Shown here: one piece after another, positions 41,456-43,831 of the stretch
Numbering within the stretch: the stretch's first letter is position 1
How the letters are laid out: every line of letters begins with the position of its first letter
Source of the DNA: Lysobacter arenosi
Lineage (GTDB): Bacteria > Pseudomonadota > Gammaproteobacteria > Xanthomonadales > Xanthomonadaceae
Reading direction: 5' to 3'
DNA: 64,000 nucleotides
Assembly: GCF_016613475.2 (NCBI RefSeq)
Contig: NZ_CP071517.1
Coordinates: 3,038,001-3,102,000 of the forward strand
Translations under genes and position numbers: made by a program
The notes under the pieces: model-generated
What the model was told of the DNA's origin: nothing
The model's database searches: none
Seen by the model: only the letters and a program-made list of their open reading frames with translations

Positions 41456-42247
41456 TCAGTACAGTCGCGACAGCCATCCTTCGGCGCACCATGACTGCAG
41501 ATGGCCGATGGCGACGACGGGCACGTCACTCACCTCAAGCTCAGTGGCCAGTGCCTCGCACAGGCCGGCGAAACTTCCGCCGTGGAGGAGGTGGCTGATC
41601 GCCAGCCGTTCGACCGGATCGATCGAGCGGAATCGGCAGACCCGCTCTTCGTCGCGCCACAGCGCCCAGCTCGCGTGCGCGGCAACCGCGGCCGGCGGCG
41701 ACTGCCCGGCCTTGATCGCCTGCCAGGTCTCGACGCTGTTGTACCCGCCCTCGAACAGCCGGAAGCTGGGATGCAGCGCCAGCCGCAGGCTCGCCCAGTC
41801 CGCCTGAGGCAGAGCCCGCAGGTCGTCCCAGGCCAGGCGAACGCCATCGGCCGCGTCGAATCCGTCGAGCAGGCAGCGCTCGAACCGGGCCAGCTCCGCC
41901 AATTGCGGGTGCGCAGCGAAGGGATCGGCCCTGGCAAGGAAACCGGGCAGGCCCGAGCCGAAATCGCGCAACGAGCGAACACGTGAGGGATGCATTGCGA
42001 TGAAGTCCTCGCACATGCGCGCCCACAGCTCATCGCCCAGGTAGGTGCCCAACACCGGGTGGTCGTGCTCGAGCGCCTCGCGCAGCCGCGCGCCATAGGC
42101 GTTCCCATAGATGCCAAGGCCAAGCTCCGCGGGCATCCGGCCAGCGGCGAGCAGGCCGTCGACGTTGTCATCGCTACCGCGAACCTGCGCCAGGAACTGT
42201 CGTTGCAGCCGCGCCAGCGGATCACTCGTGGCCGATCGGGAAGTCAT
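41456..42247 (-). CDS. bufC: DUF2063 protein, BufC/HvfC-like partner of the MNIO enzyme
   Basis: The 263-residue protein has the N-terminal DUF2063 domain (LARLQRQFLAQVRG, GLGIYGNAYGARLREALEHDHPVL, YLGDELWARMCEDFIAMHPS). In this family the domain helps the MNIO enzyme recognise its precursor peptide. Its ATG 42247 overlaps the bufB stop by four bases (ATGA), and bufB is in turn coupled to bufA2. No DoxX gene (bufD/hvfD) follows; the next gene is yjbR. The role as a RiPP recognition subunit follows from family knowledge and operon context. Confidence 0.85.
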   Translation of the reverse strand: MTSRSATSDPLARLQRQFLAQVRGSDDNVDGLLAAGRMPAELGLGIYGNAYGARLREALEHDHPVLGTYLGDELWARMCEDFIAMHPSRVRSLRDFGSGLPGFLARADPFAAHPQLAELARFERCLLDGFDAADGVRLAWDDLRALPQADWASLRLALHPSFRLFEGGYNSVETWQAIKAGQSPPAAVAAHASWALWRDEERVCRFRSIDPVERLAISHLLHGGSFAGLCEALATELEVSDVPVVAIGHLQSWCAEGWLSRLY

Positions 42248-43131
42248 GCCGCCATCGCCGGCATGGCGCGCGCAAACGCCGCGCGTGCCAGATCGAGTTC
42301 GGCCAGCAGCTCCGGCAGCGGCGGAAAGTGGTCGTCCCGCTCGATCATCGTGCTGACCGCGCCGAACCGTGCGATCGCATTCTCGTACAAGGACCACACC
42401 GAGTCGGGCACTTCGTGGTCGTGGGTATCGACGCAGTACGTGCCGTAGTCGCTGTGGCCGGCCAGGTGAATCTGCCAGACACGATCGGCGGGAATCCCGG
42501 CGAGGTAATCGTGCGGATTGAATCCGTGATTGCGCGCGCTGACCTGGATGTTGTTGACGTCCAGCAGGATCCGGCAGCCGCTGCGCCGTGCGATGCAGGC
42601 AACGAACTCCCATTCGGGCATGTCCGACCCGTGGAACTCGACATAGCTGCTCAGGTTCTCCAGCAGCAGTTCACGGCCGAGATACTCCTGCACCCGCTGC
42701 ACGCGTTCGACCACGTGGGCGATGGTTGCTTCGTTGTACGGCAGCGGCAGCAGGTCGTGGCTGTTGATGCCATCGACGCCGGTCCAGCACAGGTGATCGG
42801 AGACCCACGCCGGTTCGATGCGATGCATCAGCTCGCGAAGACGCTTGAGGTAGGCGCGGTCGAGCGGGTCGGTGCCGCCGATCGACAGCGACACGCCGTG
42901 CATGGCGATCGGATGCTGCGCGCGGATCCGATCGAGATAGTGCAGCGGCTTGCCACCGTCGACCATGAAGTTCTCGGAAATGATCTCGAACCAGTCGACC
43001 GTCGGCGGCGAAGCCAGGATCTGTTCGAAGTATTCGGGGCGCAGCCCCAGCCCGAAGCCGAGCCACGGACGGGACTCCGGCGCACGCGCGCCGGAGTCGC
43101 CTGCGCCGCTGTTCGCGACGCGCTTGCTCAC
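42244..43131 (-). CDS. bufB: MNIO family (DUF692) peptide-modifying enzyme, BufB-like
   Basis: The 295-residue protein is a multinuclear non-haem iron-dependent oxidase of the DUF692/MbnB family, which modifies cysteines in precursor peptides, for example to thiooxazoles in bufferins. Candidate metal ligands and conserved sites are His78 ([11 protein letters not shown]), Glu158 (LENLSSY), Asp191 (LLDVNN), His207, His222 and His226 (IHLAGHSDY), Asp235-His239 (DTHDH) and Glu264 (IERDDH). It starts at GTG 43131, which overlaps the bufA2 stop by four bases. The N-terminal 20 residues are not conserved. Role: modification of the BufA2 peptide. Confidence 0.92.
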
Positions 43132-43577
43132 CCGGCGTTGCCGCCGGTGTTGGCGCAGCTGGCGGCCGGCAGGGTGACGAAACCCTTGCCCTTGCAGCTG
43201 CCGTGGCCCTTGCAGGCGTTGTCGGCGGTCTTGCAGTCGTTGTGTCCCTTGCAGGCGTTGACGCCGTAGCAGTGCACCTGGCTACCGGCCTCGGCCTTGA
43301 AGCTGATCCTGGGATCGACGCGGGTGCCGCCGATGTCGCCACAGGCCTTCTTGGATGCGGCGACAAAGCCCTTGCCCTTGCAGCTGCCCTCGCCCTTGCA
43401 GGCGTTGTCGGCGGTCTTGCAGTCGTTGTGGCCCTTGCAGGCATTGACGCCGGAACAGTGCACCAGCTCGGCCGCGTCCGATGACTTGGCCTTGGCGCTG
43501 GCGGGTGCGGCGAAGGCCATGCCGGCGGCGATCAGCGCCAGGGCAACGCCGGAAACGGGAACGATAGGGGACTTCAT
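43128..43577 (-). CDS. bufA2: BufA2-type bufferin precursor with two tandem Cys-rich units
   Basis: The 149-residue product has a signal peptide ([20 protein letters not shown]) for export. The mature part holds two copies of a six-cysteine unit, [20 protein letters not shown] at 39-58 and [20 protein letters not shown] at 101-120, each continuing to [12 protein letters not shown] and a last Cys. Cysteines are 41, 47, 53, 60, 66, 79 and 103, 109, 115, 122, 128, 141, each pair exactly 62 residues apart. Known BufA2 precursors, as I recall them, have a single unit. Bufferins are copper-buffering RiPPs modified by the adjacent MNIO enzyme. Start ATG 43577 with GGAG upstream. Confidence 0.9.
43176..43280 (-). 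repeat. 105-bp repeat within bufA2, distal unit
   Basis: This encodes the second cysteine unit of the precursor. It matches 43362-43466 at about 96 of 105 positions by hand count, with no gaps, a period of 186 bp. The similarity at DNA level points to a recent internal duplication or continued gene conversion. Confidence 0.9.
43362..43466 (-). repeat. 105-bp repeat within bufA2, proximal unit
   Basis: This encodes the first cysteine unit. See the partner copy at 43176-43280. Differences include GAG versus CAC codons at one position (Glu versus His before GSCKG) and Ser versus Tyr after the first cysteine. Confidence 0.9.
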
Positions 43578-43798: not shown

Positions 43799-43831
43799 AA
43801 AAGAAAAGGCCGGCTCCTCGGAGCCGGCCTT
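43799..43831 (-). terminator. Terminator after the indolepyruvate oxidoreductase gene
   Basis: A near-perfect palindrome, AAGGCCGGCTCC / GGAGCCGGCCTT (43806-43831), is followed on the minus strand by TTTTCTTTTT. It ends the 43878-47561 gene and isolates the buf operon, whose promoter must lie in 43578-43800. Confidence 0.85.

Follow-up and report, generated by a model that had tools for sequence, protein, structure and literature searches.

The closest described relatives of the gene considered here are the Buf2 (BufA2) bufferin precursors, which contain six conserved cysteines in 90% of cases and twelve in the remainder, the family having formerly been named Buf_6/12Cys (Antoine et al., 2025, PMC12452194). 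The 12-Cys precursors have been modelled with duplicated domains, one of the two Buf2 models in the published figure being from Cognaticolwellia aestuarii, and although that study describes the Buf2 modification as not identified, the mass loss per cysteine and the absorbance match those of Buf1 (PMC12452194). The Buf1 (DUF2282) precursors, which give structural models related to those of Buf2, have four conserved cysteines, of which the central ones are modified and the outer ones are in a disulfide (PMC12452194). Repeated cysteine motifs on one chain that is served by one MNIO-DUF2063 pair are likewise found in the EGKCG oxazolin, fontiphorin, and bulbicupramide precursors (captophorins), and in the case of FonA a single such pair acts at seven sites on one chain with the loss of four hydrogens per repeat (PMC12668002). 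Herein we consider a gene in a 64,000-nucleotide stretch of the Lysobacter arenosi genome, termed the window, and we propose that it encodes a two-domain, 12-Cys BufA2/Buf2 precursor in which both units would be modified by BufB and BufC to give one copper-buffering chain, and that the duplication is ancient, a reading to which we assign a probability of about 0.85.

The bufA2 gene is a single open reading frame (43128–43577, minus strand) that runs from an ATG and encodes a precursor of 149 residues. A hydrophobic N-terminus, judged by eye, indicates a probable Sec signal peptide of approximately residues 1–28 that ends in PASA (43494–43577, minus strand). Two six-cysteine units follow, unit 1 spanning residues 40–84 (43326–43460, minus strand) with Cys 41, 47, 53, 60, 66, and 79, and unit 2 spanning residues 102–146 (43140–43274, minus strand) with Cys 103, 109, 115, 122, 128, and 141, giving twelve cysteines in six pairs that are each exactly 62 residues apart. 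The NCBIfam model for BufA2, NF050166, which has a length of 79 and thus represents a single unit, matches the precursor in two stretches (148.3 bits vs a cut-off of 60, E 5.3e-44). By its score and the six conserved cysteines of each unit the protein belongs to BufA2, and by having the 6-Cys domain in duplicate on a single chain it belongs to the 12-Cys type of Buf2, where the structure model is of moderate confidence. That model, made with AlphaFold2, has a mean pLDDT of 64.9 and a pTM of 0.54, with values below 50 for residues 1–32 and of approximately 51–66 for the core loops, and it repeats, with moderate confidence and 62 residues apart, the strand before the first cysteine, the post-core strand, and the following helix. 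When the model was compared with PDB folds, no useful match resulted (three matches, best E 4.2).

The adjacent genes complete an operon of the kind expected for this family. The bufB gene (42244–43131, minus strand) encodes an MNIO maturase with an ERDD motif, its GTG start overlaps the bufA2 stop by 4 bases, and its product is a BufB-type MNIO as judged by NF050167 (385.7 bits, cut-off 310) and PF05114 (367.3 bits). The ATG of bufC (41456–42247, minus strand) overlaps the bufB stop, also by 4 bases, and its product is the DUF2063 partner (PF09836, 70.6 bits, cut-off 27.2), which falls below the HvfC model NF050145 (42.2 bits vs 142 needed). The initial annotation, which had read from the sequence a BufA2-type precursor with two near-identical six-cysteine units in a bufA2-bufB-bufC operon, is borne out by these matches. 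The 4-base overlaps suggest that translation of the three genes is probably coupled. A terminator-like hairpin with a T run, read directly from the sequence (43801–43829, minus strand), lies between an upstream indolepyruvate oxidoreductase gene and bufA2, and past bufC are the gene of a YjbR protein and then that of an M20-type amidohydrolase, the latter named from its sequence. The YjbR gene is directly beside the oxidoreductase gene, and neither bufB nor bufC is matched in the interval, in 8 of the 10 other same-genus loci with YjbR, while the remaining two have no oxidoreductase match inside the short locus; M20 is beside YjbR in three of the ten, with no bufB or bufC there, a count that could miss an M20 gene given that each locus is only approximately 3.4 kb. 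The YjbR and M20 neighbors are thus independent of the operon, as they occur together in same-genus loci that contain neither bufB nor bufC. A buf operon is at the same place in genome G007 and has the same neighbors in Lysobacter prati, and since it is present in some and absent from other same-genus loci, the operon has been sporadically inserted into the YjbR-oxidoreductase interval or lost from it.

Compared with the published 12-Cys Buf2 precursors (PMC12452194) no difference in kind was found. They likewise have duplicated 6-Cys domains, adjacent MNIO and DUF2063 genes, and membership of NF050166, and the differences are that the period is 62 residues in the Lysobacter group versus 61 in many marine loci, and that no DoxX match was found among the five proteins of the window that were put to Pfam. 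The one-unit BufA2 precursors have the same unit and the same enzymes with half the cysteines. The window gene shares the MNIO/DUF2063 system with Buf1, whose four conserved cysteines contrast with the six of each unit here; PF10048 matches unit 2 at 22.6 bits, just above its cut-off of 22.4, and a whole-genome PF10048 search gave no match at E ≤ 0.001. The captophorins differ in that they are built of short Lys-Cys pentapeptide repeats, whereas the window precursor consists of a duplicated domain.

How common the doubled form is was assessed in four sets of genomes, in which BufA2-positive denotes an NF050166 match above the cut-off and units are adjacent matches within one open frame. Two units in one frame occur in 5 of 30 BufA2-positive genomes in a family sample (297 genomes), 4 of 26 in a phylum sample (398 genomes), all four being in the window's class, 2 of 67 among the matches listed in a class sample (369 genomes), and 6 of 12 among 99 near-relative genomes, own genome included; the samples overlap and each includes the window's genome. 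Two further genomes of the class sample, G1053 and G1063, gave several matches in one frame and were rejected as two-unit upon inspection, being core-expanded. Within the genus, BufA2 is present in three of 12 genomes, two with two units and one with a one-unit gene, the BufB of which is placed elsewhere in the tree. A protein search found 1918 homologues among 2046 candidates at E ≤ 1e-3, and 119 of the 120 listed of these 1918 are two-unit by a strict pattern, with the remaining one, P0053, having two units but missing C3 of unit 1. Similarly, when genome contigs were searched with the window protein, 79 of the best 80 of 189 loci have the two-unit architecture, including that of C. aestuarii, and L085 alone departs from it, with a tandem pair of one-unit genes. 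These homologue and locus sets are biased to two-unit forms by the window-protein query and under-sample two-unit proteins with very different cores. The statement in the initial annotation that BufA2 precursors have one unit therefore agrees with the published majority (PMC12452194) and with the minority of two-unit genes in our family, phylum, and class samples, but its suggestion that a doubled unit is unexpected does not, as the 12-Cys type is already published (PMC12452194). The doubled BufA2 is the published subtype and not a new architecture, and the window gene looks like an ordinary example of it.

The age of the duplication was approached through BufB. The 82 two-unit loci require two label changes in a tree of 129 rows, where the shuffled mean is 38.4, and also two in a tree of 157 rows that includes class-wide one-unit loci, where the shuffled mean is 52.7 and the two changes are forced by starred branches. 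Both are quick trees, with no mixture model or bootstrap and with long branches flagged, and both exclude L063, one of the 83 two-unit genes, which has a short BufB. With midpoint rooting of the 157-row tree, all 82 two-unit rows are within one set of 88 rows, whose two basal branches are weakly supported (62 and 54), and 69 of the 75 one-unit or tandem rows are outside it. The set spans Lysobacteraceae, Shewanellaceae, Colwelliaceae, Oceanospirillaceae, Marinicellaceae, and Methylophilaceae among other families. Two Methylophilaceae MAGs and the MAG containing L063, which is titled Verrucomicrobia, are outside Gammaproteobacteria by NCBI names, so that either two-unit genes have spread beyond the class as so named or some of the bins are wrong. 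Loci L001, L006, and L021 (Lysobacter prati), close relatives with the window among them, share the same unit-specific differences at the same codons (TGT/TGC, Ser/Tyr, and Glu or Gln/His), and TGT in unit 1 with a silent TGC in unit 2 is found in six of seven related loci among those listed. One BufB set across families, together with unit differences common to relatives, indicates that the duplication long predates the window's genome, and the recent duplication suggested in the initial annotation is thereby contradicted; as judged from these sequences it is ancient. The data are most simply read as one origin that has been retained with its own BufB clade, although this is not proven.

The other six of the 88 rows are one-unit loci of one family code in the window's class (L129–L132, L135, and L137), with BufB nested in the two-unit set, and these are possible reversions from two units to one. 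A second observation concerns adjacent small BufA2 genes beside a bufB, found in L085 (2816–3376), L190 (1165–1734, minus strand), and L199 (1024–1727, minus strand), in which one gene has a lipoprotein-like and the other a soluble Sec-like N-terminus by eye, with cores that are closely similar in L085 and L190. The existence of such tandem pairs is consistent with an origin of the two-unit gene by fusion of tandem one-unit genes, and L085 adjoined the two-unit set in the 129-row BufB tree. In the 157-row tree the BufB proteins of these three loci form their own group (99*) and the nearest outside row to each is one-unit; fusion is a possible origin.

A mechanism for the maturation of both units can be put forward from the residues around the cysteines. 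Lysine follows all four inner cysteines (C2–C5) of both units in the window precursor and does not follow C1 or C6. Among the 83 two-unit genes, a lysine after C2, C3, and C5 is present in 66, 73, and 76 genes in unit 1 and in 80, 79, and 79 genes in unit 2, but after C4 in only 33 (unit 1) and 26 (unit 2), and after C1 in none, and since C4 is without a following lysine in most of these genes, four modified cysteines per unit may not hold generally. The ERDD motif is present in the window BufB and in 55 of the 82 rows with two units and 43 of the 47 with one, where the solved MNIO structure 3bww has ERDF. An aspartate at this position is reported for Cys-Lys MNIOs (PMC13097082), and by our own reading of the alignment the ERDD aspartate would be that published site. 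The lysines after the inner cysteines, the ERDD motif, and the Buf1-like mass loss together point to up to four oxidized cysteines and one disulfide per unit. We infer that one BufB, with BufC, would oxidize the inner Cys-Lys cysteines C2–C5 of both units in the cytoplasm, that the products are probably 5-thiooxazoles, and that within each unit C1 and C6 are probably joined in a structural disulfide like that of the outer cysteines of Buf1. One chain with two putative copper-binding domains would then be exported by means of the signal peptide and would buffer excess periplasmic copper. A copper stoichiometry per chain that is doubled and modification at two sets of sites, both raised in the initial annotation, are plausible.

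An alternative is that one unit is the functional substrate and that the other stays unmodified, as a spacer, a follower, or a recognition domain. Modification of both units is, after all, a deduction from their residues, the homologue P0053 has dispensed with a cysteine of unit 1, and unmodified precursors have been raised as a possibility, although for whole precursors and not for units (PMC12452194). In a spacer, the cysteines and the lysines that follow them should tend to be lost, yet all twelve cysteines are invariant in 66 of 66 aligned rows (66 of 121 proteins, P0053 excluded) and the lysines after C2, C3, and C5 are kept in both units in most of the 83 genes, and we regard such a division of roles as quite improbable. 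The two units might instead be separated, as the initial annotation also suggested, by cleavage of a pro-polypeptide between them to give two metallophores. Some other RiPP precursors have repeated cores that are released as separate peptides, and the M20 family, to which the product encoded two genes downstream of the operon is assigned by sequence, includes peptidases. An M20 gene, however, accompanies YjbR in some relatives with no bufB or bufC at that place, no dedicated protease was recognized in the operon, the linker runs into a strand predicted for domain 2, and the distance from first cysteine to first cysteine stays at 60–63 in the two-unit loci among the best 80 of 189, making cleavage into two products exceedingly unlikely. 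Our preferred reading remains that of one chain with both units modified.

The third alternative, that a recent tandem duplication in the window gene or ongoing gene conversion between its units took place in its lineage, arises from the DNA itself. A base-by-base comparison of the two core copies, codons 38–72 (43362–43466, minus strand) and codons 100–134 (43176–43280, minus strand), gives identity at exactly 96 of 105 bases, as the earlier hand count of about 96 had it. Given both proteins and the codon usage of 33 window ORFs, 87.0 (sd 2.9) would be expected and at least 96 is reached in approximately 1 of 1000 draws, which by itself pointed to recent duplication or conversion. That indication was overturned by a control within the gene, in which synonymous codons of the two cores were shuffled among same-residue positions: the same codon is used at 22 of 26 positions versus 22.0 expected, and in another form of the control at 23 of 27 versus 22.0, with the limitation that this permutation has an sd of 0 and little power, the codons concerned being nearly all preferred ones. 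Within that low power, the agreement of observed and expected codons leaves no excess that needs a recent event, and conservation of the protein and the strong codon bias of the window gene suffice for the DNA match. Across the family there is a modest excess of same codons in favor of such events (1178 of 1890 vs 1096.7 by permutation, z 5.6; in another control 1264 of 2040, or 62.0%, vs 54.4%, positive in 59 of 83 genes), which holds when each of 50 genus labels is represented by a single gene (median z 4.4 and range 3.3–5.7 over 200 draws) and amounts to 4.0 points within proteins versus 0.4–0.7 between genera, and L079 has the same extra glycine in both units (CKGQGGF), the only such case shown among the 83 genes. 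Only two of the 83 genes, however, reach p < 0.01 singly in the same-codon permutation, and concordant silent changes in disjoint sister pairs show no clear excess over control (19 vs 18.5 in 24 pairs, 8 vs 8.0 in 17 pairs, and 45 vs 38.8 in 35 pairs). For the window gene a recent event is also contradicted by the unit-specific differences it has in common with its relatives, and by the single BufB set of two-unit rows. We consider recent duplication or conversion very unlikely, and the ongoing homogenization suggested in the initial annotation finds no support in either the codon comparison within the window gene or the sister-pair comparison. Older gene conversion in the family is possible, while recent conversion is unsupported.

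The ancient duplication that we favor is accompanied by a resemblance of the two cores that extends across the family. In 83 distinct two-unit genes, mostly from the window-protein search (best 80 of 189 confirmed stretches), the 32-residue cores are 86.7% identical within a protein versus 78.8% and 80.2% when like units of different proteins are compared, and the 13-residue flank shows the opposite trend (56.4% within vs 67.4% and 59.5% between). When each of the 50 genus labels contributes a single gene, the core value is 86.1%, whereas permuted partners average 77.7% (maximum 79.9% in 20000); here a locus with no named genus is its own label and, with G handles and named records unmatched, near relatives may be counted separately. 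The contrast has its limits, as the flank too slightly exceeds permuted partners in this set (56.8 vs 53.6%, p 0.0013), and the paralogue in the same protein is the sole closest core for 12 of 100 units and tied for 13. Judged from these comparisons, the likeness of cores within one protein probably reflects selection by a shared enzyme on two substrates. We tentatively suggest, at somewhat less than even odds, that the two cores co-evolve with their shared MNIO through this selection and perhaps older conversion, with flanks that are largely unit-specific. No paper on homogenization of RiPP cores was found by title or start of abstract in one search of an open-access library, which does not prove its absence. 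If the suggestion is correct, the co-evolution of enzyme and substrate would be recorded naturally in two-unit precursors, and their matched cores and mostly unmatched flanks would provide data for mapping the core residues that are read by the enzyme. They would also be a convenient natural means of learning if a single MNIO-DUF2063 pair acts on two cores that lie far apart behind the same leader, and if copper capacity rises in step with unit number.

Other arrangements of cysteines were seen in the same searches. A single BufA2-like core is expanded by short internal cysteine repeats in L199 (1338–1727, minus strand) and L200 (1792–2259, plus strand), with 10 and 13 cysteines in the open frame and one-unit neighbors beside them, another way of gaining cysteines and one not seen in the available text of Antoine et al. 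(2025, PMC12452194). The BufA2 model search of the window's genome matched bufA2 as its only BufA2 gene. The same genome has two more MNIO genes, each beside EGKCG-type precursors, at approximately 1.01 and 1.55 Mb (L152 and L153, G000:C1). The precursors of these loci have EGKCG repeats and by eye seem to include EF-hand-like segments, with two such precursors in L152, while L153 lies downstream of a sigma-factor-like gene.
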